Program-made: the position numbers and the translations under genes
The notes under the pieces: generated by a model
Database searches by the model: none
What the model saw: the letters and a program-made list of their open reading frames with translations, nothing else
What the model was told of the DNA's origin: nothing
Shown: positions 3,590-56,502 of the stretch, one piece after another
How positions within the stretch are numbered: position 1 is the stretch's first letter
Layout: every line of letters starts with the position of its first letter
Assembly (NCBI GenBank): GCA_022448945.1
Contig: JAKVCV010000016.1
Span: forward strand, 1 to 64,000
From: Saprospiraceae bacterium
Lineage (GTDB): Bacteria > Bacteroidota > Bacteroidia > Chitinophagales > Saprospiraceae
DNA: 64,000 bases
Direction: 5' to 3'

Positions 3590-4186
3590 CTAAATCAATA
3601 ATAGTAATAATACAATTCCTAAAATTCCGCACATTATACTACCTATAATGATTCCAGCTGTAGAAAGACCTTTACCGGGGTTTCTTTTTGAAAATATTCT
3701 ACCAAAAATAGATGTAACAAGTCCTACTATAGCTGTTATGATTGAAGCAAATAAAAGATAGGATGCTACATTTGAAAAAAATGATGAAAGCGTATTTAAG
3801 ACCGGTACGGAATACAAACCATACAAGGCTCCATAGAGTAGAAAGACAAGAAAAACTAAAAATAAAATTACAGAAAGAATAGACATTACCATACCTACAA
3901 TCCCAACTGCAGTACCATTTGAATTATTTTTTTGCTTTTCCTTGATCATGCGGATCTTTTTCTGGATCCTTTGTCGCTGTACCTGCTTTTTACTTTTATT
4001 AAGACGGTTTTCAAGCCTTGACTTACGCTGTTCCATGCGTAAATTACGTCTTTGATCCTTTTGAGAAATCTTAGTACCATCATCTCTGCTATCAATCCTT
4101 GAATAATCTACTGAATAGCTCGACATTAATATTATAAAGCCAAATGAAAATAAATACAATGGAATTAAATGCAGTTTGTTTTTCAT
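3590..4186 (-). CDS. Mosaic membrane protein, paralog A (DUF4190-like tail)
   Basis: 198 residues from the start at 4186. A start at 4231 is possible but would add 15 residues absent from the paralog. A signal-peptide-like segment is followed by a very basic, Arg/Lys/Gln-rich helical stretch (about residues 38-87) and then three hydrophobic segments including GKGLSTAG, a pattern seen in DUF4190-type small membrane proteins. The first 87 residues are identical to those of the gene at 5046-5603, while the rest is only distantly similar. The upstream leader differs from those of its two neighbours and carries a short repeat (AATTAAAGTTGT twice). Function unknown; the basic part may bind nucleic acid or the inner face of the membrane. 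Confidence 0.7.
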   Translation of the reverse strand: MKNKLHLIPLYLFSFGFIILMSSYSVDYSRIDSRDDGTKISQKDQRRNLRMEQRKSRLENRLNKSKKQVQRQRIQKKIRMIKEKQKNNSNGTAVGIVGMVMSILSVILFLVFLVFLLYGALYGLYSVPVLNTLSSFFSNVASYLLFASIITAIVGLVTSIFGRIFSKRNPGKGLSTAGIIIGSIMCGILGIVLLLLLI

Positions 4187-4310
4187 GATAATTAAAGTTG
4201 TCGTTTGATAAAAATAATTAAAGTTGTACAAAATGAATATTTAATTATTAATAAATAAGGAATAGGAAATAAATTACTTATATCCGTTGTCTGTTATTAA
4301 TTGCTTTTAT

Positions 4311-5045: not shown

Positions 5046-5603
5046 TTAAAACATCATAGGCGCATATATTATTAAAAATAAAATAAGGGAAAGCAATAAA
5101 ATACTTGATATTATTAATCCTGCAATAGAAAGTCCTTTGCCTCCAAATCTTTCAGGTTTATTTTTAGATAAATTCAAACCCACAATTGAAAAGATCAATC
5201 CTGGTAAAGCTAGAATAGCACCTAAAATTATAGCTGCTAGTAAAAATTGTTGAAAGAAAGCAATTATAAGTAAAATTGACAAACATACAGCAACAATAGA
5301 TAAAACTATTCCTACAATACCAAAAACCGGATTTTCATTTTGATTTTTTTGCTTTTCCTTGATCATCCGGATCTTTTTCTGGATCCTTTGTCGCTGTACC
5401 TGCTTTTTGCTTTTATTAAGACGGTTTTCAAGCCTTGATTTACGCTGCTCCATGCGTAAATTACGCCTTTGATCCTTTTGAGAGATCTTAGTGCCATCAT
5501 CTCTGCTATCAATCCTTGAATAATCTACTGAATAACTCGACATTAATATTATAAAACCAAATGAAAATAAATACAATGGAATTAAATGCAGTTTGTTTTT
5601 CAT
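5046..5603 (-). CDS. Mosaic membrane protein, paralog C (DUF4190-like tail)
   Basis: 185 residues. The first 87 residues equal those of the gene at 3590-4186. The remainder has three hydrophobic helices with a GGKGLSIAG loop between the second and third, resembling DUF4190-type proteins. The two DNA copies differ at about nine positions over 260 bp, all silent. It begins the cluster on the minus strand, behind the terminator at 5668-5702, so it may have its own promoter in 5604-5667. The role is unknown; all three genes of the cluster look like envelope proteins with a basic cytoplasmic or periplasmic arm. Confidence 0.7.
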   Translation of the reverse strand: MKNKLHLIPLYLFSFGFIILMSSYSVDYSRIDSRDDGTKISQKDQRRNLRMEQRKSRLENRLNKSKKQVQRQRIQKKIRMIKEKQKNQNENPVFGIVGIVLSIVAVCLSILLIIAFFQQFLLAAIILGAILALPGLIFSIVGLNLSKNKPERFGGKGLSIAGLIISSILLLSLILFLIIYAPMMF

Positions 5604-10837: not shown

Positions 10838-13522
10838 TTAATTTATAATCGGTAACGTTATTTCAAATTGCACTTTAAAGGGATCTCTCCTATCAATTTT
10901 AGAATGATATTGAATGGTTCCATTATGATTGTCTATTATCTGATGAATAAGATATCCACCTATTCCAGAATGACCTGTTTTTCCTGCATAGTTTCCATAT
11001 CCTATAAAATCATCAAACGAAAAATTAACAGGAAATGGTTTCCCATCATTTTTATATAAAATGATTAATTCCTGTTGATCAGAAGACAATCCAACTCTAA
11101 AATGAATGGAATACTTTTTGTTCTTTTGCACGAAACCGTGACGTTTAGCATTGTCAATTAAATTGGTAAAAACAGTAGATATCTGAGATTTATCTAGTTT
11201 TGTATAAATAGGAATTTCCCTCCCTTTTTCATCTTCTTCTATTTCTATTTGTATAGTAAACATCGGTTCATTCTGGTACATTTGCTGTATTTCTTTAAGC
11301 AAATCCTTGACTTTTATATATTCAAGTTTTAATTTACTACGGTCTGCTTTGACGATGTCTCCCGTTGAGTCAATGCTATTTATTGAATGAATAAGGATCG
11401 ATTCCATTCTTTCAAGAATGGTTTCTAGCTTGTCAATAGAGTCCAAGTCTTCTCCTTCAAATGCAGCAAAAATTGGATCGGAAAAATTTATAGGTTTTTG
11501 GGCTATTTGTTTTTCAAGAAGATAATCTTTTAAATTTTTGAATTCTGTCAGAACCGCAGGTAAGCGATTGCCCAATTCATGTTGTAGTGATGATATAATT
11601 TTGTATTGTTCACTTTGTGCCTTCTGTTTGCCAAGATTTAGATCATGGCGCAACTTCTCAACTTTTTGTTCTTCTTTCTTTAACAATAAGATCTTAGCTT
11701 CTTTAATGATTGCGGACTGTTCATCTAATGTTGGAAGGTTAATTTGTAATTCCTCAAATTGATTTTCATTTATTGTTTTGAATTGATAATCATTTTTATA
11801 CATATTTAATTGCTGTAAAAACAATTTTTCATACATCTTCATTATAAGATAATCAATAATAGTTTTTGATTCATCAATTCTAAAAGCCATTATATCTTCA
11901 TTAACCAGAACAGGTGTTTCTTTAAATATAAAATAACCTAGACGTAATTTTTTGCCAGAACGTTTCACAAGTAGTACACTATCTTGTATTAATTGACCTG
12001 AGACTTCACTAACATCATCTGTATTGGGTAATTTATTTGTATTAATAATATAATTGGTAACTGAATTTCCTAAATCCTGTGGTCGTATATAAGGAATATT
12101 TTGACGTGGTGTATCGTCATACCAAAGGGATGGTTTCTGGGTTTTGAATAATTGTTTTAGCTGTATAAGTTGTCCTGTGGAATCCAATTGACGAAGTTGA
12201 CTAATAAATGGTGAAGCATAGATTTTTGCATCAAGATTATAATCTTTTAAAATCACAAAATGCAAAGGGACAAGAGTAATACATTCATTTAATTCAGGTA
12301 TGCTTTCAGTTTTTAAATCATGATATGCGTCTGCAATACATTTAATTTGTTTAACAGTTAATTCCCTTTTTAATTTAGATTGGGTATTAACTTTCAAATT
12401 AGCCCCATTAATAAATAGTATTTGCTCTCTTCTTGAAATCGCTTTTTTCTTATTGATAACCAGTAAACATATAGGAACACCAGTAGCGTATAGCAAACCG
12501 TATGGTAGTGTTATTACTGCTTCAAGTAAGTCACGCCTGATAAGAAATTCTCTAAGTTTTCTATTTTCTTTTTCGTTTACCAAAGAATGTATAGGGAGAA
12601 TACAGATCAGTTGACCTTCATTATTAAGTTTATCAAGCATTTTCTGGATAAACAAAATATTGCAATTTATTTCTGCTGCATTAACATCAAATGGAATTGA
12701 AATATACGATTGGTCTTTGATTGTCCCTGTTGAAACCTTTTGCCCGAATGGAAAATGCGCAACTGCTATATCAACTTTTAAATTGGAATCATTATCTTCA
12801 ACTAAGCAATTTGTATTGGTGATTTGCGAATGATAAGCACCATTGACCAGTAAATTCATTTTACATAATGCCCAGGTATTTAATTCTTTTTCCTGAGCAA
12901 TAATATCAAGATTGGGTAATTTATTTATAAATCCAACAAGAGAAGAACCCTGACCTGCAACAGGATCATAAATCAACTCACCACCTTTAGGATTGGTTAA
13001 TGCTACAATAAGATCATTTATTGATTTTGGAGTAGTACGTGTAAAGCCTAGCTTTCCTCCCTGAAGAGCAGTTCTATACAAGCCATCGTTAAAAAAAGCA
13101 CCAAAATCAGATATTGAAATTGCACGAGATGAAAAATCAAGTTTTTTTAACATTACAAGTACTTGAATTAATAATTGCGCATTTTTTTCCTGTTCTAAAG
13201 CAGATATAAGTGGAGAAAAAATATCTTTTAAATATGTATTCCGTTCAGAAAATTCAGTAAATGTTTTGATTAACTGTTGTTTTGCATGCTGTGGTTGTTC
13301 TACTACAGAATTAGTAAAATTGTCTATCCACTTGAAATCTTCTGATTTGATATCTAAAAAATCAATCTTGTTCTCTGTATGTAGTGCTAGAATTCGTTTA
13401 TAAAAGACCAATGACAACAAGACATTACTGGCATTGGTGGGCTCCCAAATTCCACGGAGAGCATCGAGTGTGGAAAAAAAGACAGTTTCTAACTGAAGTG
13501 CTTGTTCCTTTGTTTTCATCAA
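10838..13522 (-). CDS. Type I DNA methylase / specificity-like / histidine kinase fusion
   Basis: 894 residues in three parts. Residues ~1-370 look like HsdM: an N-terminal helical part with LLSLVFYKRI, motif I DPVAGQGSSL (~186-195), and LREFLIRRDLLEAVITLP with GLLYATGVPICLLVI further on. The motif IV position, normally NPPF, reads HFPF (256-259), so catalysis is doubtful. Residues ~430-600 resemble an HsdS target-recognition half (YIRPQDLGN and NLPTLDEQSAI, then a coiled coil). Residues ~640-894 are a histidine kinase: H box LQHELGNRLP with His648, N box NLIDNAKRHG, and G box GHSGIGG. No membrane segment, HsdR or standalone HsdS is nearby. This suggests a cytoplasmic DNA-binding sensor kinase rather than a restriction enzyme. 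The ROK gene follows by 34 bp. Confidence 0.85.
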   Translation of the reverse strand: MMKTKEQALQLETVFFSTLDALRGIWEPTNASNVLLSLVFYKRILALHTENKIDFLDIKSEDFKWIDNFTNSVVEQPQHAKQQLIKTFTEFSERNTYLKDIFSPLISALEQEKNAQLLIQVLVMLKKLDFSSRAISISDFGAFFNDGLYRTALQGGKLGFTRTTPKSINDLIVALTNPKGGELIYDPVAGQGSSLVGFINKLPNLDIIAQEKELNTWALCKMNLLVNGAYHSQITNTNCLVEDNDSNLKVDIAVAHFPFGQKVSTGTIKDQSYISIPFDVNAAEINCNILFIQKMLDKLNNEGQLICILPIHSLVNEKENRKLREFLIRRDLLEAVITLPYGLLYATGVPICLLVINKKKAISRREQILFINGANLKVNTQSKLKRELTVKQIKCIADAYHDLKTESIPELNECITLVPLHFVILKDYNLDAKIYASPFISQLRQLDSTGQLIQLKQLFKTQKPSLWYDDTPRQNIPYIRPQDLGNSVTNYIINTNKLPNTDDVSEVSGQLIQDSVLLVKRSGKKLRLGYFIFKETPVLVNEDIMAFRIDESKTIIDYLIMKMYEKLFLQQLNMYKNDYQFKTINENQFEELQINLPTLDEQSAIIKEAKILLLKKEEQKVEKLRHDLNLGKQKAQSEQYKIISSLQHELGNRLPAVLTEFKNLKDYLLEKQIAQKPINFSDPIFAAFEGEDLDSIDKLETILERMESILIHSINSIDSTGDIVKADRSKLKLEYIKVKDLLKEIQQMYQNEPMFTIQIEIEEDEKGREIPIYTKLDKSQISTVFTNLIDNAKRHGFVQKNKKYSIHFRVGLSSDQQELIILYKNDGKPFPVNFSFDDFIGYGNYAGKTGHSGIGGYLIHQIIDNHNGTIQYHSKIDRRDPFKVQFEITLPIIN

Positions 13523-17211: not shown

Positions 17212-18183
17212 GTGGTGAAAAATTATTTAGACACGACAATAGATGTTTACAGAAAGGCTGCTGAAACTCCTAATTTGGGTTTATGTTGCACTACTACCCC
17301 AATTTGGCAACTCCCTGATTTGAAAATTCCTAAAATCATGCTGGAAATGAATTATGGCTGTGGCTGTACGGTTAACCCACGTGATTTAGTGAACAATCCT
17401 AAAATCTTATACATTGGTGTTGGAGGAGGAATGGAACTATTACAATTTGCCTACTTTAGTCGAAATAAAGGTTCTGTTATTGGTGTAGACGTAGTTGATG
17501 AAATGCTAATGGCTTCAAGGGCTAATTTTGTGCAAGCTGAAGCAATGAACCCATGGTTCGAATCAAATTTCATCGAATTAAAAAGAGGTAATGCATTAAA
17601 CCTGCCACTAGACAATGAATCTATAGATGTTGCAGCTCAAAATTGTTTATTTAATATTTTTGAATCTGATGATCTTAAAAAAGCATTAAAGGAGACTTTT
17701 AGAGTGTTGAAACCCCATGGTCGATTAGTGCTTTCCGACCCTATCTGTGAACAATTAATGCCAACTGCTCTTAAAAATGATCATACATTAAGAGCTGAAT
17801 GTTTAAGTGGAGCTATACCATTACAGAAATATATAGAATTACTAACTGGTATAGGATTTGGCACAATAGAGATACGAGCAAGAAGGCCCTATAGGGTACT
17901 TTCTCCTAATCAGTACAATACTGATGAATTAATATATATAGAAAGTATAGAAGTATGTGCAATTAAAGACCCAATGCCTGATGACGGGCCATGTGTGTTT
18001 ACTGGCAAAACTGCTATTTATTATGGGGAAGATGAATTTTTTGATGATAATAAAGGGCATACTTTAACACAAAATCAACCGATATCAGTTTGTGATAAAA
18101 CGGCAAAAGCGCTTAATGAACTGAATAAAGAAATATATATTTCAGAATCCACTTTCCATTATGATGGTGGAGGTTGCTGTTAA
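17212..18183 (+). CDS. arsM: Arsenite methyltransferase ArsM, arsenosugar-biosynthesis type
   Basis: 323 residues. A SAM-binding core (YIGVGGGMELL) is flanked by cysteines placed as in the arsenosugar-pathway ArsM group: Cys25-Cys26 in GLCCTTTP, Cys50/Cys52 in MNYGCGCTV, QNCLFNIFE, and a final GGGCC. It is expected to add methyl groups to As(III) with SAM and thiol, the first step towards arsenosugars or a detoxification step. The start is GTG at 17212 or 17215, with no ATG upstream in frame. Two glycosyltransferase genes follow with gaps of 23 bp and 1 bp, suggesting a biosynthetic operon. The radical SAM partner ArsS, usual in arsenosugar synthesis, is not in the window. Confidence 0.85.
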   Translation: MVKNYLDTTIDVYRKAAETPNLGLCCTTTPIWQLPDLKIPKIMLEMNYGCGCTVNPRDLVNNPKILYIGVGGGMELLQFAYFSRNKGSVIGVDVVDEMLMASRANFVQAEAMNPWFESNFIELKRGNALNLPLDNESIDVAAQNCLFNIFESDDLKKALKETFRVLKPHGRLVLSDPICEQLMPTALKNDHTLRAECLSGAIPLQKYIELLTGIGFGTIEIRARRPYRVLSPNQYNTDELIYIESIEVCAIKDPMPDDGPCVFTGKTAIYYGEDEFFDDNKGHTLTQNQPISVCDKTAKALNELNKEIYISESTFHYDGGGCC

Positions 18184-30734: not shown

Positions 30735-31670
30735 ATGTCAAAAAACAAAAACCGAAGACGTCCTATAAATGTTTTAATGATAGATGATGACGAAGGACTA
30801 TCGGCTTCTATAAAGAACAGAGCAAGACGCTTTAATGTCATAATAACTACAGCTACTAATTTCAAAGATGGTTTCCGTGAACTTGAAAACAACCAAAAAT
30901 ATCAGGCTGTTATTCTAGATGGGAAAGCCCCTATGAATAGTGAACAAGTTCAGGGAACTGAAGCTGAAAACTTTGTTCATGAATCGATTATTAAACTTAA
31001 AGAGCTAGAACTCTTACATGAACGCACCTTGCCATTCTGTGTTCATACTGCATGGTATATTCAATTGGAACCAAGCTTACGTAACCGAGCAAAAATTTTT
31101 GACAAGAAAAAAACATCGGTAAATGATTCGTTAATGGAAGAGATGTTTGAATATCTACACCAACAGATTGGCTTACTTGAAACTACAAAAATCAAGCTAC
31201 AACATCCTGAGGTGTTTGAATTTTCAGAGACTTACCTGGATGACGAAGACAATGCTTTTCTTGTCAGCATTCTATCGCCAAAATTGTCTTCTAAGCGAGA
31301 AGATTTAATGCATCGTTTGGGTTTTATCAGAAGACTCGAAGAATCTATTCTGAATGTGTATTGTAAGGAATGTCTAAAAATTGATCCTATAATGTTTGGA
31401 CAGGGTAAGGATACACCTAGTCGAGGAAAAGACCTCATTGATCACATCAAAAATAAGAAACTAGCTCCTTTGCATATATCTTTTATGACTTATGTGATTT
31501 ATAGCACACAAAGTATAGCTATAAATCACAAAGCTCCTGAATCAAGTGAATATTATAATTATCCTATAACGGTATATACCGTTCAGACCTTTATAAATGC
31601 ATTACTTGATATTATTATATGGGTAAAAGACAGTATTGAAAATGGCGTTCAAGAGCGAACTGATAATTAA
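30735..31670 (+). CDS. Atypical response regulator with novel C-terminal domain
   Basis: 311 residues. The N-terminal third is a receiver-like domain: acidic triad DDD at 17-19, phosphoacceptor Asp62 in VILDGKA, a Thr in CVHTAW, and a Lys in FDKKK. An insertion after Asp62 makes it longer than standard receivers. The C-terminal ~180 residues have no helix-turn-helix or enzyme motif that I recognise and may be an all-helical output or binding domain. No ordinary sensor kinase gene adjoins it. The only histidine kinase domain in the window is in the methylase fusion at 10838-13522, which makes that a candidate partner; this is inference. Confidence 0.7.
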   Translation: MSKNKNRRRPINVLMIDDDEGLSASIKNRARRFNVIITTATNFKDGFRELENNQKYQAVILDGKAPMNSEQVQGTEAENFVHESIIKLKELELLHERTLPFCVHTAWYIQLEPSLRNRAKIFDKKKTSVNDSLMEEMFEYLHQQIGLLETTKIKLQHPEVFEFSETYLDDEDNAFLVSILSPKLSSKREDLMHRLGFIRRLEESILNVYCKECLKIDPIMFGQGKDTPSRGKDLIDHIKNKKLAPLHISFMTYVIYSTQSIAINHKAPESSEYYNYPITVYTVQTFINALLDIIIWVKDSIENGVQERTDN

Positions 31671-48594: not shown

Positions 48595-51500
48595 TTATGG
48601 AGCTAGCTTATCCATTGCAGCTGCAAATCCAGACAAATCACTGTGGATATAAAGCACTTTAACCTTTATCTTGCCCCAAGCTCCCTCCTCTTTTAAAATA
48701 CTTTCAACTTCTTGAAATCCCCAAAAGCTTGCAGCTTTTTCATGAGCCTTAATAGTTTGAATAATTTGAGACTTTGTAGATTCACTAGTTAATCCCTTCA
48801 TTGCTGATCTAAATGCTTCATTATTTCTTGAATGTGCATCACCATTGGAGATAATATTTGCAGCCCCACAGCCACCTGCCTCTTTATCATGAACTACCCA
48901 ATCACAATCGTCAGCAGCATCAGACATTTCTCCACATTGATGACAAGTAAACATCTGAGATAATCCTTGACTAAGCTCACACGGTTTAGCTGGAGCGTAT
49001 AGTGCTTTCTTCTTTCGTGGAGGATTGGTGGTCCATTGAAAGTCCTTCATACCTTCAGCCATATTTTCTTGATTAACAAATATCTCTTCACCTTCTGGAG
49101 TAAACATGCGGGTCAAGGGTTCAATTACACCATCTCCACCCATAAGATTTTCAAAATAACAAACCCCTTTTTTGTGCTCAACAAATAATCTATTTGCCTT
49201 TTCCAAGGTATCCGTCTTTAATTCATCATCTAGCTTTTTTTTCAAAGCAGCTAATGACGCATGATTTAGAAATTCAAAAAAATTATTACTGTCGTTCATT
49301 TGTAAAATGTCCTGTACAATACTTGTCCATTTATCATCCCAATCATCTCCCATAAGTTCCTTTATCTCTTCCAGCGTATTATAAGATACTCTATCAACTG
49401 TCAATGCGCATTGAATAATATTTGAGTCTACATGAGCCTTTTGCTGAACTACTTGAGATGGCTTTTCAACGTTATTATCAACATTTTCCTGAATTGTACC
49501 TGTTTTAGTTTTATTTTGGACAAGACCTTCATTATTACCACCACCATTATTAGTGTTAATATCTTGTGTATTAGTGTCAGGGTTCAATTTTAGACTGTTT
49601 ACCTTAGCAGCAATATTGTCCGCTCCTTTTTCCAACTTAGGATCATCATTAATCTGAGAACCATTTTGTGTTTTGGTTGCTTTTACCTGACCTTTTTTCT
49701 GTTGAATAATATGGCCTAATTCATGTGGCAAATGCTTTTCCTGTCCGGGAGCAAGATGTACTTCATTACCCTTGGCATAGGCATGTGCATTAAGCTGAGC
49801 AGGTTTGTTTGAGTTTTTATGAACCTTAACATCATCCATGGACATTCCTGAATATTGTTCAAACCCAGCTTTCATATCGCTGGGAATACCACTACCCGAT
49901 GATTTACCAAAGGAACCAATGCCTCTAGAATTATCAGATTTATCTTTTAGCTGGGTAGGTTCATCATTACCTGAACTATCAAATTCTTCAGCTGCAGCTT
50001 GATCAATTGTATTAGTTCTAGTTCCTGAACTCTCTAATACAGGCCCTCCAACCAATTTTTCACTTTGAATTTTTACCTGACCCCTTACTCCTGTACTCAA
50101 ATCCAGTCCTATATCATCAAATTTATATTCCCCCATTTCATTTGCGGATGCATCTCCTTCTAAACGTGGTATTATAGCATTACCATTCATTAATGTAATA
50201 TGCGCATCATCTCTAATATATCTAAACCCTGAAGAGCTAAAAGTATAATCATCTTTACTTAAGTTGATCGAACCAGTTACTTCAATATCTTGAGCATTTT
50301 CAAAAACCTCATATTGTCCAGATCCTGAAAATTTAAGGTTTTCAGAACTATAAGCATGGGCAACATCTATGAATAGATCAAAATCTTTATATTCAAGATA
50401 TTCCTTTACTTCCCATTTATAATCTTCAGCTACTGTAATTCCAAGTTGAGAACTAAAAAAATCCATTACAGAATCAGACTCTTTATCAATACTATCCTTA
50501 GACCCAGTAGATAGACCCTCGATATCTGCTATTTCATCAGAGACCTTTTTAATCTTATTATATTGCTTAGTATATTTTTTAAGTTCCCTTTTCTCTGAAA
50601 AAGATAAAGGCTCTTCATTTTCTTTTTCTTTTAATTGATCTATTTCAAGCTTTAATTCCGCTTCAGTAAAACCAAACTTATCTTCCAAATTCATTCGCTT
50701 ATTCTCTAAATCGGCTATTTCTACGTTATCTTCACTTATATAAGTAAGTTCATCAGCTATGTTTTCATGGGCAGTATTAATTATTTCTTCTTGTTCATAC
50801 AATATACTTACTAGGGGTAAATTACTAAAAATAACATCATCTGATTCTTCTCCTTCTAAAACAATATCTTTAATTTCATCTGCTATTTCGCCTGCTTTTC
50901 CTGTTTCATTACCTGACTTTTCGTGCATAAAATTATCAACTTCTCCCAATCCTAGATCCCCTTTAGACGCATAATTATTGGTAAATTCTATCAAGTAATT
51001 ACTATATGCGACTTCTTTGTTTTGGTTGTATTTCTGTGTATATTTATCATAAACAATTTTTTTATCCGCTAATGTTAAACTTTGCTTTACCTTATCATCA
51101 TCAGAAAGTTTTTCATCTCCTTTAGTAGATTGATCATTATCCTTATCAGTATCTGTTTCGTTTTTTAAACCTAAAAGAACATCCAATTTAAAAGTTCCTC
51201 CATTTTCAGGTAAATAGGAATCGGCTTCAGCTAATCCTTTATCAACAGATAATATAATACCATCTTCTTCAGTAAATATTTCTATAATTTTACTGCATTT
51301 CGCTTCAAGTTTAGGATATTCTTGCATTTGCTTTGCGTATAATTGATATTCAGAATGTATTTGATCTAAAACACCAGCTTGCGCGATAAGGCTTCGGTTG
51401 TCTAATTTTTGTTCAAGTGCACCCATACGGTATTCAAGCAATTCTTTTTCTAACTTAAATGTATTGAGTGATTTTGATAGTTTTTCAAGGATGCCTAATT

Positions 51501-54500
51501 CATCAGCTGCTCGATATGCGCCATGTCTTTGGCCTATTTTTAATGCTATATTTTCGGCATCTAAAAATGCTTTTTTAAGAATACGGGCTTTTCTTTGATC
51601 CTTATTTTCAAGCTTTGGATCCCTTTTTATTGTCGTGGTTTCATCATGTAACTTTTGAGGGTCAGAAGATTTTCTAGCATTCTCAAGAGACAACAAGAAG
51701 GCATCTTCAAAAATCTTAGCATTTTTAACGGCACGTTTTTCTTTATCCGGTATATCAGTATCATTAACAATAACTGTATAAAAACTCTTAACATTCATAT
51801 CTGCCTCTCCGGACAACACCGCCTTAATTCCTTCTATCTTACCCGCTTCTTTATCTCTGGCTTTCCAATATGCATCTACAAAACCATCTTTAAATAACTT
51901 TGAAGGATTAAAATCTATTAAACTTTTCTTAATTTTTAATCTTTTTAAATTGCTTTTAGCATCTTTTACCTTATTCTTAGAATCTTCATCGGATTCGTTT
52001 TCCTTAGATTCTTTCTCTGCTTGCTTTAATTTTTGTTTAGCCTCTTTAATTTCCTTAGAAATGACTCCCCTTAAATCTTCTGCCGATTTTAATGCGTTTG
52101 GTTGCATTTGAGCATGATTTTCTTCTTTTGCATGAAGTTGTCCTAATTTAACACCTTCTGCCTGACCAGCTGAAAACTCACTTTGGACATTTCCCTTGTT
52201 TTGTTCATTAACTATATTCCCAGCTTGCTCATTTGTAATCATCCCTGACTTAATTTGCATAGCCAATTCTGATCCTTTAGTATCACCCTCAATATATTTT
52301 GCCTCAGACTTATAGTCCTCAGAATTTATATCTTTATTTTTTAAAGCTTCTTCTAATTTACCTTGTGCAACTTTTAGATTTTCGGGCAATTTATCAGAAC
52401 CTGCAATTCGTATATATCCATCTCTATACCCAATAACATATAATATGTTCTCGTCTTTAGATTTTAAAATTTCTTTTTCTATTGCCTCAACTCTTTTTGC
52501 ATAACCTTTTTTAAACCCTTCTTCTAATTCAGGAAGATCCTTTTTTACTTCATCAGAAACAACAATTTTCTTTGTTTCATTATCCCCAATTTTAATTAAA
52601 ATAACATCGCTATCATCTCCTTCTTCCGTTTCCCCTTCCGATTCAACTCTAACATCTTTGTATTTTTCACGAACTGCAACAGCAAGTTCTCTAGATTTCA
52701 CTTCTTTATACCATAGAAGTACTCTTTGTATGATTTTATCGTTTTTACTGCCAAACTCCAAGAGTGTTGTTTCGCTTATCTCAATTTCTTCCTTATCGGG
52801 TCCTTTAATAGATTCAACATTTTTTTCTACATCATCAGGTACTATTTGAGAATTTTTAAGTAGAAACATTTTTGTCCACGCGGCTATGTCCTTTTCATTT
52901 CCTTCTTCAAAAGCACTACGTGCCAAATTACTCTTAATATTTCCATACATAGCCTCTTTTTCCTTAATCTTTTCCTTAGTATTGGTCATCATTGATGCAA
53001 AAGCGCCGTAGCCAGTTTCACTTGCAGACTTAGCTGCTCCTTCTTTATAAGCGGGATGTTCTTTGTTTTCTTTATATTTTTTATCTATTTCAGATTTATC
53101 ATTTTTAAATCCTGCCTCATAATACCTTCCATCTTCATATCCTTTATAGTAACCAAATTGTTTTTTTTGTTTTAAATCTATGTTGAAGCCTTCCATATAA
53201 ATAGATATTAATTGATCTTTTTCACTTCTTAGTTCTTTGTTATTGTCTATTTCCTTACCTCTTGTATCTTTTTTTTTATCCAGCTTATTAGTAATCTTTT
53301 GGTTAAGATCTGGTTCATCAAAAGTATTTGCAGATCGTTTACTATGTACCTCTTCTTTAATTTGATTGTAAGTTAAATTATAGCCTTCTTGTGCTCCTGC
53401 AATAAAGAGATTTTTAGCTTTCTCTTTTACTTTACCTGAAAAAAAAGATACAGCATCTTTAGTTGCAATATCCAAATCAATTTTCTTATTTCCTTTTTTG
53501 CCTTTTTGCTTCTTTTTCTGTATTTCCTTAGATAGGACATCGCGATAGCCATTATAAAAAACACGGAAACATGATCTAATATTAGAAAGTATAACCTTAT
53601 TATCTGGAGTGTCTCCTAATACGGTATCTAATTCAGATTGTAATTCGTCATCCGTTGATGCCGAAATTTTAAGATCCGGATCAAATTCATTTACAAGGGC
53701 AATTTTAGCGTCAAGGGTGATGGCTTTTACCATTAAACGAATCTTTTTTTCGTAAAGCTTGGTATCCAGTCCCTCTTTTTTATAGTCCTCTAATTTCTCG
53801 TCTTTTTCAATTTTAAATCCACCTACAGATTTGCCCAAATTAAAAGCAAATTTTTCATTATCATTCTTACCGGAAAAAGTATCTCTACCAAATTTTCCCT
53901 TTATTTTTCCAGCTATTTTATTCGTGGGGTCTAACAAAAAAACAGAATAAATATTGTAAGATTTTCTATATGCTGCTTGAAAATCAACATCTTCATTTTT
54001 ATATAAATTTTCAGCATTTTGAATTTGCGTCTGGAGTTGTGATTTATGCGGATCATCATCAGCAAGATATTTACACTTGAACTTAGCATAAGCGACGAGC
54101 TCACCAAGGTTTAATTTAACAGAAACTGGTTCGTCATCATTTTCATCTATTCGTTCTTCATGTCTGTAAACCGTCCTTAAGGCTTTCTTATAACCCGCTG
54201 TTTCCTTCTTCTTATTCAGTGAAAATTCTGCTTTATTATCCTCGGTTTTGATATAAGATGCATCAGTAGACAATTTATATGCTTGTTTAAAAAAACCAAT
54301 TTGTTCATTTCTCTTTGCAATAAGTTGAACTTTTTCTTCTTTATCTTTAGTAGAATCTGGATTAGCATATAAAGGTTCAGATGTTGGGTAATTATCGAGT
54401 TTTATAATTTTTACAATATTAGGGGGAACAACAATGCTTATGCCCGCTTTTTTAATTGCTTCAGGATCAGAAACAACAGATTTTACACGTTTAAATGTAA

Positions 54501-56502
54501 ATACAGATGCTAACAATCCTTTGATTGAACCTGCCGTTTCGCCCAACTGATATACAGGGTCATTTTTTTTGCGCTCCTGAAGTGCTTTTTCTTCAGCTGC
54601 CTTTTCAGCCTTTTTTTGATAAAATGCCTGATTATAACCATATATAAATCCTGCACGAATTTTTCCGTACTTGTTTTTATCTTTCTTGGCTTTATCAACA
54701 GAAGATGATGAAAAATGTTCCTTTTTAACCTTTTTAAGCCTTTCTAATTCTTCAGCTTTTAAGTTATCATTTCTACCTAGTTTATTACCATCTAGGTATC
54801 CCTGCTTAAAAAGAGGGTCCTCTAAGCGTTCTTGATGAGAAGGACCTTTTTCCTTTTTTGATTGAGATTTCAGGTAGTTTATATTATAAAACTTAAGATA
54901 TGCTTTTTTGAAATTCTCAGGCATGGGTTGTCCGTCAGGGTTTTTACCAGAGGATGCATTAGAATGAACTATTTTAAAACTGGTTTTATATTCCTTTCCA
55001 TTTGACGCCTTAAGTTCAAAATCATTTCCTTTTTTTTCTTCTTTATTTTTATTACCCTGTTGCTGAATAGCAATCATTCCAGCATAAGTACCTAGATCTT
55101 TACCCAGTTTATAGTTAGGATCCTTTTCTCGTTCTTTTTCGGCTTCTTCGCGTTTCTTTTTTTCATCTTCTTTTTGAAACCTTAGGCCTTCTGAGTAGCC
55201 AATATTATAGCCTTGATAATAAAACTTTAAATATTGAGGTCTGGATTGATCTTCAGCTTTAGCTTTATCTGCTTCTTCTTTTATGTACTGTTTTTTAGGA
55301 GGTGTTTCCTTGCTTTCTTTTAATTTTTTATACTCATAAGTATTGGGTCCAATATTCTTTTCCTTACGTTCTGCTTCCAATTTTTCCGCAGGATAGAAAG
55401 GAACTTTCTCTATAACACAATTCCCTTGTTTAGGTTCAGAAGAAGTGTCCCCACTTTGCGTACCTCCCTCTACTTCTGAATCTTCTGATTTTTGTTGTTT
55501 AGGGTCTTCAGGTTTTGAGGTATCAATTATTTTAAGCATTTGGCCATAACCTGATGCTCTTCCAACCAAAGTTCCTTTTTTAATTGCTTCAGATTCAACT
55601 GCTTTTTTCTCTTCTAGTTGATTTTCTAATCTCTGATCCATTAACTCCTCAACATCCTTATCCGGTTTAGTTTCTTTTTTATCCTCCTTAGCTGCCCTGG
55701 TTTTACCAACAGATGAATCATCTTTATTTATCTCTACATCTTCTTTATCTTCATTTGTTGTAACATCTTCTTCTGACTTAGAATTATCTTTGTCTTTATC
55801 AGTGATTGATTCTACCACTTCGTCTTCTAATGTTTCAGATACAGCTTTATTCTCCAGAGTAGCGAATTTTATAACCAACTTTTGAGCACGACTTAATGTT
55901 ATTTCTGCTTTTTTTTCAGATTTATTTTCTTCAGAATCAGAATCTTCTTTAGCTGTAGTGTCTTCAGGATCATTGCGATCACCATCTGAACCACCTGAAG
56001 CACCATCATCATCTGATGTACCAGTATCTAAATTTTCATCCTCTGATCCTTCTACTGGGCCTTCATCATCTGATTCTTCTTCTGTAAATTCTTCTCCTGG
56101 GTCATCATCATCTGATTCTTCTTCTGTAAATTGTTCCTCTTCTCCTGAGCCACCTTCATTATCTTGAATATTTTCTGGTGATGGTTTAGGAGCAACAGGT
56201 CCGCCACCTGATGATGAAGTATCGACTTCCTTGTTTTCCTGTTCGGATTCCCTATTAGCTGCTTCCTCTTCTTCATTTATAGGACTTTCTTCTTCAGCTA
56301 ATTTTTCAGATGACTCTGAATTTCCAATCGCCATGGAATCACCTTTCGAATTTATTCCTCCTAAATTAACATTCGAATCTATGTCGAAATCAAGATCTTC
56401 ATCATGATTTACAGATACAGCTCCCTCCTGGTCATGGTCCTGCTCATAAACTTTACCTTCCTTATCCTTTCTACTAGGGCTATTATCTTCGTGGTTTGCC
56501 AT
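48595..56502 (-). CDS. Giant DUF4157 protein with acidic N-terminus, glycine/aromatic repeats and novel C-terminal domain
   Basis: 2,635 residues, no signal peptide or membrane helix. Residues ~30-300 are Glu/Asp/Ser-rich, with a short tandem repeat. Residues ~400-1700 are Lys/Glu-rich coiled segments with about ten degenerate units that contain a YxxGYxxGY-type aromatic/Gly run and then a DPxYxxGxxxG glycine run. Residues ~2205-2275 form a DUF4157 domain with HELGH at 2260-2264 followed by IIQQ. After a linker, ~2357-2635 is an unrecognised domain with CHQCG (~2518) and a downstream VVHDKEAGGCG. DUF4157 is associated with large secreted proteins of extracellular contractile injection systems and polymorphic toxins. 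No eCIS, secretion or immunity gene is in the window. Divergent from the WG-repeat gene. Confidence 0.85.
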   Translation of the reverse strand: MANHEDNSPSRKDKEGKVYEQDHDQEGAVSVNHDEDLDFDIDSNVNLGGINSKGDSMAIGNSESSEKLAEEESPINEEEEAANRESEQENKEVDTSSSGGGPVAPKPSPENIQDNEGGSGEEEQFTEEESDDDDPGEEFTEEESDDEGPVEGSEDENLDTGTSDDDGASGGSDGDRNDPEDTTAKEDSDSEENKSEKKAEITLSRAQKLVIKFATLENKAVSETLEDEVVESITDKDKDNSKSEEDVTTNEDKEDVEINKDDSSVGKTRAAKEDKKETKPDKDVEELMDQRLENQLEEKKAVESEAIKKGTLVGRASGYGQMLKIIDTSKPEDPKQQKSEDSEVEGGTQSGDTSSEPKQGNCVIEKVPFYPAEKLEAERKEKNIGPNTYEYKKLKESKETPPKKQYIKEEADKAKAEDQSRPQYLKFYYQGYNIGYSEGLRFQKEDEKKKREEAEKEREKDPNYKLGKDLGTYAGMIAIQQQGNKNKEEKKGNDFELKASNGKEYKTSFKIVHSNASSGKNPDGQPMPENFKKAYLKFYNINYLKSQSKKEKGPSHQERLEDPLFKQGYLDGNKLGRNDNLKAEELERLKKVKKEHFSSSSVDKAKKDKNKYGKIRAGFIYGYNQAFYQKKAEKAAEEKALQERKKNDPVYQLGETAGSIKGLLASVFTFKRVKSVVSDPEAIKKAGISIVVPPNIVKIIKLDNYPTSEPLYANPDSTKDKEEKVQLIAKRNEQIGFFKQAYKLSTDASYIKTEDNKAEFSLNKKKETAGYKKALRTVYRHEERIDENDDEPVSVKLNLGELVAYAKFKCKYLADDDPHKSQLQTQIQNAENLYKNEDVDFQAAYRKSYNIYSVFLLDPTNKIAGKIKGKFGRDTFSGKNDNEKFAFNLGKSVGGFKIEKDEKLEDYKKEGLDTKLYEKKIRLMVKAITLDAKIALVNEFDPDLKISASTDDELQSELDTVLGDTPDNKVILSNIRSCFRVFYNGYRDVLSKEIQKKKQKGKKGNKKIDLDIATKDAVSFFSGKVKEKAKNLFIAGAQEGYNLTYNQIKEEVHSKRSANTFDEPDLNQKITNKLDKKKDTRGKEIDNNKELRSEKDQLISIYMEGFNIDLKQKKQFGYYKGYEDGRYYEAGFKNDKSEIDKKYKENKEHPAYKEGAAKSASETGYGAFASMMTNTKEKIKEKEAMYGNIKSNLARSAFEEGNEKDIAAWTKMFLLKNSQIVPDDVEKNVESIKGPDKEEIEISETTLLEFGSKNDKIIQRVLLWYKEVKSRELAVAVREKYKDVRVESEGETEEGDDSDVILIKIGDNETKKIVVSDEVKKDLPELEEGFKKGYAKRVEAIEKEILKSKDENILYVIGYRDGYIRIAGSDKLPENLKVAQGKLEEALKNKDINSEDYKSEAKYIEGDTKGSELAMQIKSGMITNEQAGNIVNEQNKGNVQSEFSAGQAEGVKLGQLHAKEENHAQMQPNALKSAEDLRGVISKEIKEAKQKLKQAEKESKENESDEDSKNKVKDAKSNLKRLKIKKSLIDFNPSKLFKDGFVDAYWKARDKEAGKIEGIKAVLSGEADMNVKSFYTVIVNDTDIPDKEKRAVKNAKIFEDAFLLSLENARKSSDPQKLHDETTTIKRDPKLENKDQRKARILKKAFLDAENIALKIGQRHGAYRAADELGILEKLSKSLNTFKLEKELLEYRMGALEQKLDNRSLIAQAGVLDQIHSEYQLYAKQMQEYPKLEAKCSKIIEIFTEEDGIILSVDKGLAEADSYLPENGGTFKLDVLLGLKNETDTDKDNDQSTKGDEKLSDDDKVKQSLTLADKKIVYDKYTQKYNQNKEVAYSNYLIEFTNNYASKGDLGLGEVDNFMHEKSGNETGKAGEIADEIKDIVLEGEESDDVIFSNLPLVSILYEQEEIINTAHENIADELTYISEDNVEIADLENKRMNLEDKFGFTEAELKLEIDQLKEKENEEPLSFSEKRELKKYTKQYNKIKKVSDEIADIEGLSTGSKDSIDKESDSVMDFFSSQLGITVAEDYKWEVKEYLEYKDFDLFIDVAHAYSSENLKFSGSGQYEVFENAQDIEVTGSINLSKDDYTFSSSGFRYIRDDAHITLMNGNAIIPRLEGDASANEMGEYKFDDIGLDLSTGVRGQVKIQSEKLVGGPVLESSGTRTNTIDQAAAEEFDSSGNDEPTQLKDKSDNSRGIGSFGKSSGSGIPSDMKAGFEQYSGMSMDDVKVHKNSNKPAQLNAHAYAKGNEVHLAPGQEKHLPHELGHIIQQKKGQVKATKTQNGSQINDDPKLEKGADNIAAKVNSLKLNPDTNTQDINTNNGGGNNEGLVQNKTKTGTIQENVDNNVEKPSQVVQQKAHVDSNIIQCALTVDRVSYNTLEEIKELMGDDWDDKWTSIVQDILQMNDSNNFFEFLNHASLAALKKKLDDELKTDTLEKANRLFVEHKKGVCYFENLMGGDGVIEPLTRMFTPEGEEIFVNQENMAEGMKDFQWTTNPPRKKKALYAPAKPCELSQGLSQMFTCHQCGEMSDAADDCDWVVHDKEAGGCGAANIISNGDAHSRNNEAFRSAMKGLTSESTKSQIIQTIKAHEKAASFWGFQEVESILKEEGAWGKIKVKVLYIHSDLSGFAAAMDKLAP
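56063..56132 (-). repeat. Short tandem repeat in the acidic N-terminus
   Basis: Two exact 28-nt copies at 56063-56090 and 56105-56132, offset by 42 nt, encoding EFTEEESDD units. The repeat keeps the frame and so changes only the length of the acidic part. Confidence 0.7.

Follow-up and report, generated by a model that had tools for sequence, protein, structure and literature searches.

Two-component-like signalling is used for phage defence by Detocs, in which the effector receiver carries a nucleoside-phosphorylase domain. Bellieny-Rabelo et al. 2021 (PMC8011034) describe HEF_HK (PF19191) and Response_reg_2 (PF19192) as a predicted soluble kinase-receiver pair, encoded mostly by adjacent genes and linked to restriction-modification. 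CapK/CapS (EMBO J 2026, PMC13373217) involves a DNA-activated GHKL kinase that controls neighbouring immune operons, some of them located beside restriction systems. Bacteria with restriction systems face foreign DNA as well as failure of their own marks, and the sensing of these events is largely open. The present analysis concerns a 64,000-nucleotide stretch of DNA from Saprospiraceae bacterium (assembly GCA_022448945.1, contig JAKVCV010000016.1, positions 1 to 64,000; hereafter the window), and in it a gene that fuses a type I methylase part, a specificity-type part and a histidine kinase. With a probability of roughly 0.6, its predicted product acts as sensor kinase in a cytoplasmic two-component system, with a catalytically disabled HsdM-like methylase and one recognition domain as the sensor and with the receiver protein encoded at 30735-31670 as the partner. 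The features of the two genes are listed below (aa, amino acids; E, expectation value; SAM, S-adenosylmethionine).

10838-13519, minus strand: fusion gene for a pseudo-methylase, target recognition domain and histidine kinase; 893 aa from the ATG at 13519; orthologs in 7 of 8 other genomes of the genus
13154-13477, minus strand: HsdM_N-like helical domain, residues 16-123 of the 894-aa frame; Pfam E 1.5e-4, 22.8 bits, below the cut-off of 24.5
12212-13069, minus strand: N6_Mtase fold, residues 152-437; Pfam E 6e-45; best Foldseek match 7vru (PacII_M1M2S), E 3e-24
12944-12967, minus strand: motif I (SAM site) DPVAGQGS, intact, residues 186-193; pattern in 7 of 7 non-redundant genus copies
12746-12757, minus strand: position of motif IV, HFPF for NPPF, residues 256-259; HFPF in 7 of 8 genus copies
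11702-12163, minus strand: single HsdS-type target recognition domain, residues 454-607; Pfam Methylase_S E 1.5e-6
11513-11728, minus strand: long helix and second helix, presumed dimerisation and phosphoacceptor region, residues 599-670; AlphaFold2, low confidence from about residue 631
11579-11581, minus strand: His648, the presumed phosphoacceptor; invariant in 43 of 43 full-length homologs
10853-11194, minus strand: HATPase_c kinase domain with N, G1 and G2 boxes, residues 777-890; Pfam E 1.2e-8
30735-31670, plus strand: predicted partner, a receiver protein of 311 aa; 17 kb from the kinase gene and unlinked to it
30759-31175, plus strand: receiver fold, residues 9-147, with acidic pair D17/D18, phosphoacceptor D62, a Thr near the end of strand 4, and K124
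31206-31643, plus strand: helical output domain, residues ~158-303; no Pfam family over it in the window's receiver

The fusion gene lies in an uninterrupted frame of 894 codons (10838-13522, minus strand), with the plus strand full of stops over the same interval. The first codon of the frame, TTG (13520-13522), is directly followed by an ATG (13517-13519), and 13519 is therefore preferred as the gene start. All of the signatures named in a preliminary description of this gene (DPVAGQGSSL, HFPF, His648, N and G boxes) are present, and its proposal that the kinase derives from a type I modification enzyme is supported. The specificity-like part that it named corresponds to the Methylase_S domain, of which the protein carries only one copy. 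The kinase, described there as complete-looking, proved not to be degenerate: 43/43 full-length non-redundant homologs retain the His, N791, G827 and the glycines of the G2 box (L092 and L099, which are cut at contig ends, are omitted from this count).

The AlphaFold2 model of the fusion protein (21-row alignment; mean predicted local distance difference test score, pLDDT, 73.7) shows a methylase, a recognition domain, an extended helix and an ATPase domain. A helix at residues 599-651 leads from the recognition domain to His648, which it carries, and another spans residues 653-670. Over residues 631-730, around His648, pLDDT is 41-60, and the model is thus poor for the hairpin of the kinase. 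In the PDB, the best match is the PacII M1M2S methylase complex (7vru), both for the model and by sequence; in the sequence comparison other type I M subunits follow. The kinase part alone gave a weak match to the sensor protein SrrB (E 0.0076). Locus L106 (7628-11959) encodes a 1443-aa methylase-kinase version with a long extra part, followed by a receiver, while in L028 (6650-9343) an N-terminal HARE-HTH domain (Pfam E 9e-7) precedes the methylase part. HARE-HTH-like N-terminal residues were also discerned by eye ahead of the methylase part in L029 (7000-9726) and L071 (6694-9507).

With HEF_HK/Response_reg_2 (PMC8011034) the present pair shares a predicted soluble kinase and receiver, mostly encoded side by side and linked to restriction-modification, and a receiver that keeps the acid pair, Asp, Thr and Lys. 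The HEF_HK pair, however, goes with C5 methylases and HATPase_c_3/paraMORC, whereas the window kinase has a fused N6 methylase and HsdS-type sensor and a PF02518 ATPase. PF19191 was absent from the matches of the window protein at E 1 and of 21 relatives at E 0.01, the presence of this model in the library being unconfirmed. PF19192 matched none of 22 receivers at E 10, in a search whose HMMER filters drop most weak matches, and in a whole-genome search it matched nothing anywhere, the controls included, so that this second search is uninformative by itself. CapK (PMC13373217) responds to single-stranded DNA and modifies a repressor with a STAS domain by phosphorylation on Ser, while the window kinase is characterised by a conserved His, by a receiver as partner and by a sensor made of methylase and recognition domain. 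That partner has the receiver fold; no search for a STAS protein was made. The likeness to Detocs consists in a histidine kinase and a receiver, as used in defence, but the Detocs sensor differs. No nucleoside-phosphorylase-type Pfam match was obtained in the 22 receivers at E 10, a search that did not extend to a further effector gene. Fold searches of the receiver yielded no CapS-like or Detocs-like match, but were swamped by receiver domains and thus exclude nothing. The type I HsdM/HsdS enzymes (PacII M1M2S 7vru, EcoKI, EcoR124I) share the fold of the methylase part; in contrast to them, the window protein has a broken motif IV, one recognition domain in the same chain and an added kinase, and no HsdR was found in its genome. 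MADS (MAD2 methylase, MAD5 specificity), compared through NCBIfam and PADLOC model names only, bears a weak likeness to the methylase part and its relatives, and the MAD2 equivalog model scored 29.3 bits against the window protein (cut-off, 720). No PADLOC model matched any of 6 receivers. A literature search (preprints and most subscription papers lay outside its reach) found no description of a methylase-specificity-kinase fusion with a receiver, in agreement with the earlier remark that the switch was not recognised as a described system.

The assignment of the receiver began from five distant kinase homologs (in G070, G013, G023, a Myroides plasmid and a phage-labelled gut contig), each of which is followed by a protein of 295-453 aa with a receiver signature; Pfam recognised no receiver in the four of these that were scanned. 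A profile built from the five, none of them from the genus, gave a single strong match in the window's own genome (30759-31643, E 2.6e-38; next match E 0.08) and one match in each of the 8 other genus genomes. The matching receiver gene lies ~738 kb from the kinase gene in G003 and ~734 kb in G004, and on other contigs in the remaining drafts. Among 395 genomes of the phylum, 15 matched the profile, the window's own included (14/394 others). Twelve of these 14 were fetched (G147 and G480, with partial matches, were left out), and in all 12 non-genus loci a large protein is encoded directly upstream of the receiver. This protein matches the kinase profile in 11/12; the one in L072 does so without a methylase part, and the one in L074 gave no match. 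Looking from the kinase side, a scan of genome contigs with an alignment of four homologs gave 159 relatives. The best 80 loci entered the comparison, 25 of them members and 55 others. The receiver is the next gene in 22/25 methylase-kinase loci, the other three being cut at or <=80 bases from a contig end, versus 0/55 of the other loci, whose matches cover the methylase part only or mainly. The preliminary description had overlooked this partner, the window's own candidate for which lies 17 kb from the kinase gene.

The window receiver has a (beta-alpha)5 fold with the acid pair, the phosphoacceptor Asp, Thr/Ser and Lys, and the acid pair, Asp and Lys are invariant in 22 receiver sequences. 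When the window kinase and the window receiver were searched separately against 35 non-genus loci, both found their best match in L028 (G070; 257 and 142 bits, respectively), where kinase and receiver adjoin each other. Moreover, the kinase and receiver distance matrices of 32 non-genus loci are correlated (r 0.80, a value reached in 0 of 2000 permutations). These two findings are the chief basis for pairing the window genes, unlinked as they are, and we regard the pairing as likely.

Full-length orthologs of the kinase fusion were found in 7/8 other genomes of the genus, with 55-70% identity, in a search of 100 genomes, the window's own included. The ratio of nonsynonymous to synonymous divergence (dN/dS) for G006/G001, the sole genus pair with a usable dS (0.87; the other five pairs are saturated or of very small dS), is 0.058 overall, 0.082 in the methylase, 0.063 in the recognition domain and 0.028 in the kinase. 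As judged from these sequences, the fusion gene is conserved under purifying selection and is no chance frame; a pseudogene is rejected by the full-length genus orthologs and the dN/dS values. Averaged across 21 pairs within the genus, the methylase is 67% identical, the recognition domain 65% and the kinase 76%. HsdS recognition domains are hypervariable; that of the genus kinases is not, given a mean identity so near that of the methylase. The genus receivers have dN of 0.04-0.06 with saturated dS.

In 7/7 genus neighbourhoods fetched, a SEC-C-type gene is located near the kinase gene, and no receiver or restriction gene adjoins it. BioB is near in 6/7 and a ROK-type gene in 5/7 (names given from the sequences); neither is near the kinase gene in G002, and in G001 the contig ends after that gene. 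The window's own genome, 99.15% complete, contains no PF02384 match besides the window gene (E 1e-5; controls matched in 12/14 genomes), no HSDR_N at E 0.01 (control genomes matched in 10/14) and no PF01555 match, PF02384 and PF01555 being the only methylase families covered. The earlier statement that no restriction subunit is present is supported by these searches. An active restriction or modification enzyme is rejected on the state of motif IV together with the lack of HSDR_N and of another PF02384 protein. The seven genus genomes with the kinase have 1 to 7 further PF02384 matches each, and G007 has none at all. By its gene arrangement, then, the genus pair is unlinked to restriction genes, with its two genes apart and kept in the chromosome.

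N6-adenine methylases have NPPF as catalytic motif IV. HFPF replaces it in 7/8 genus copies and HFAF in that of G001, while the motif in other relatives reads NPPF, SPPF, TPPF, CPPF, DLPL and others. HFPF is accordingly restricted to the genus and was rejected as a family-wide mark. Among 45 non-redundant members (duplicates L024, L066, L069, L103 and L104 removed; L072 and L074, with no recognisable methylase part, included), an intact [NDS]PP[FYW] motif IV was observed in 0/7 genus and 13/38 non-genus members, and an intact motif I in 7/7 and 8/38, respectively. Both motifs are intact in only 1/45 (L094) versus 48/52 control HsdM proteins, all 52 of which contain [NDS]PP[FYW]; members were scored at aligned positions, whereas in a control the motif could stand at any place in the sequence, a more lenient criterion. 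These 52 came from 55 control loci, the number that yielded a testable protein, and some control loci end near the match. A large restriction-linked clade has an altered motif I (mostly NPFAGLASF) and often keeps motif IV. The nearest same-strand HsdM beside the kinase, found in 23/45 loci (6 of the 45 are genus loci), carries NPP[FY] in 23/23; these operons thus pair an HsdM with an intact catalytic motif with a kinase whose methylase part is usually impaired. The preliminary description had counted homologs with intact NPPF and an HsdR neighbour, or a degenerate kinase in most members, against its own reading. Six homologs with intact motif IV (L068, L088, L089, L093, L095 and L097) do have an HsdR-like gene in the fetched stretch, which counts against that reading on the first of these points. 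Even so, the intact pair of motifs is confined to the single member mentioned, and the kinase domain is preserved in all full-length copies.

These motif patterns bear on what the sensor reads. It might respond to SAM (or S-adenosylhomocysteine) and not to DNA, with the methylase fold as a metabolite pocket and the recognition domain as a dimer strut. Such a role would fit the retention of motif I in 7/7 non-redundant genus copies while motif IV was lost, and an own genome without another enzyme of the PF02384 methylase family. We consider it unlikely, however: in the restriction-linked clade it is motif I that is altered and motif IV that is often kept, so SAM binding is not the common denominator, and in the genus the recognition domain and the methylase are conserved to a similar degree, with purifying selection on the former in the one pair with usable dS.

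In the 42 non-genus loci, a WYL-type gene was detected in 32, HsdM in 28, HsdS in 27 and HsdR in 11 (anywhere in the fetched stretch); the tally used few seed sequences and can undercount HsdR, and four organisms or near-copies are counted twice. In most relatives seen, the pair lies beside type I restriction genes, as in the complete WYL-kinase-receiver-Hsd operon of Flavobacterium omnivorum (L086), where its sequence relationships are those of a portable regulatory or surveillance module. Between L088 and L089, the kinases are 77% and the receivers 83% identical, versus 31% for HsdM and 22% for HsdS; between L088 and L090 the corresponding values are 60% and 73% versus 23% and 32%. Since kinase and receiver are more alike than the HsdM and HsdS next to them, the pair can attach to different restriction systems. 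The recognition domain of the kinase is closest to that of the neighbouring HsdS in 1/23 loci; it therefore does not follow the local HsdS, and copying of the neighbour's specificity is unsupported. A tblastn search with the L086 receiver matched three Myroides plasmids and one phage-labelled gut contig, and a scan of viral sequences with query A4 returned two weak matches in the methylase part only. Viral sequence scans with query A1 and the window receiver gave no match, and a single-protein scan of genome contigs gave 82 pattern matches with no relative among them. In L072 (6758-9973; genome G162), a 763-aa kinase without the methylase part and a receiver are encoded amid genes that, read by eye, resemble those of type III CRISPR (Csm-type); frames with a repeat-like look come after them.

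The receiver of the restriction-linked relatives could instead be an effector, an abortive-infection arm that fires when restriction fails, of which the genus version would be a retained form. The frequency of neighbouring WYL (32/42) and HsdM (28/42) genes and the by-eye setting of L072 among apparent type III CRISPR genes are compatible with this, as is the S1/cold-shock-like domain (TOTE conflict-system type) at the C-terminus of 4/22 receivers, some of the longer ones. Against it, no consistent nuclease or toxin family emerged from the receivers scanned (there were isolated sub-threshold matches, e.g., PIN_11 in 2/22), and the genus receivers are strongly conserved. This alternative, too, seems improbable to us. 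A by-eye idea that the output half is DUF4145/HEPN-like was unsupported by Pfam even at E 10; fold searches of this half were swamped by receiver domains and barely cover it.

If the preferred reading, a two-component system with a disabled methylase as its sensor, is right, two chains would dimerise via the helix running out of the recognition domain, which would continue into the phosphoacceptor helix with His648. The dimer would then hold two methylases and two recognition domains, resembling a type I modification complex (M2S-like). Binding of a DNA site (or of SAM) would alter the geometry of the helix and thereby switch phosphorylation of His648. The predicted kinase would phosphorylate itself and transfer the phosphate from His648 to Asp62 of the receiver, and the helical domain of the receiver would give the output. 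DNA sensing by the predicted sensor is plausible. The wider proposal, that the dead-methylase sensor reads a specific DNA sequence or methylation state and signals via a dedicated receiver, travelling as a cassette between unrelated type I operons and free-standing in the genus, even in a genome with no type I restriction system found, stands for us at even odds. If true, a disabled copy of a modification enzyme would couple DNA recognition directly to a phosphorelay, with a kinase and a receiver that both look soluble, and would show how a part of a defence system can become a chromosomal regulator.

A number of observations weigh against this two-component reading. The phosphoacceptor His is followed by E in the genus, but among relatives the residue at this place is often non-acidic (S, T, N, K, Q, R, A, I). 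Kinases often have Asp as the first residue of the G box; in the fusion kinases it is Asn. On both grounds, the kinase might be weakly active or atypical. Neither the window protein nor 21 relatives matched a Pfam DHp family, and model confidence around His648 is low. In G007 the kinase was not found though the receiver is present; its ROK and BioB neighbours were also missing from the search results, so the locus may be unassembled, loss and gap being indistinguishable here. Kinase and receiver genes are unlinked in the genus, which as a whole counts as one phylogenetic event, so that the pairing in the window rests on that event and on the relatives. Loss of catalysis is not universal, judging by both motifs in L094 and motif IV in 13/38, and a restriction link in trans may exist in the other genus genomes that hold further PF02384 proteins. 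Exchange of restriction genes is not general either: in L083/L085 the HsdM proteins are as similar as the kinases (both 72%; HsdS 41%), and in L031/L103 (kinase 98%, HsdM 95%) no exchange is seen.

The atypical H and G1 boxes would also suit a GHKL domain that is no histidine kinase but a MORC-like conformational ATPase, and GHKL ATPases are known in restriction operons (PMC2292703). We hold this to be distinctly unlikely in view of the invariant His in 43/43 homologs and of the adjacent receiver, whose acid pair, Asp and Lys do not vary among 22 sequences. A working but regulated orphan N6-methyladenine methylase, with the kinase controlling methylation, would account for the good N6_Mtase match (E 6e-45), for an intact motif IV in 13/38 relatives and for both motifs in L094; with HFPF or HFAF in 8/8 genus copies versus [NDS]PP[FYW] in 52/52 control and 23/23 neighbouring HsdM proteins, it has very little probability. 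A decaying type I remnant joined to a kinase by chance, as the broken catalytic motif and the lack of type I restriction families in the own genome (PF02384 and HSDR_N searches) might suggest, is scarcely credible beside the full-length gene in 7 other genus genomes, mostly with the same neighbours, its dN/dS of 0.03-0.08 per domain in one pair and the same domain order in distant relatives.

Apart from these genes, an Rfam search of positions 9000-33000 of the window gave no match. The adjoining small membrane protein genes at 3590-4231 and 5046-5603 share ~85 near-identical residues in the N-terminal half and diverge thereafter, a pattern that by its sequence is one of recent duplication or gene conversion. 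A charged, repetitive protein of 2635 aa is encoded at 48595-56502; its C-terminal stretch may resemble DUF4157 of contractile injection system cargo. The gene at 17212-18183 encodes a putative SAM-dependent methyltransferase with a terminal GGGCC, which we take to be perhaps arsenic-related.

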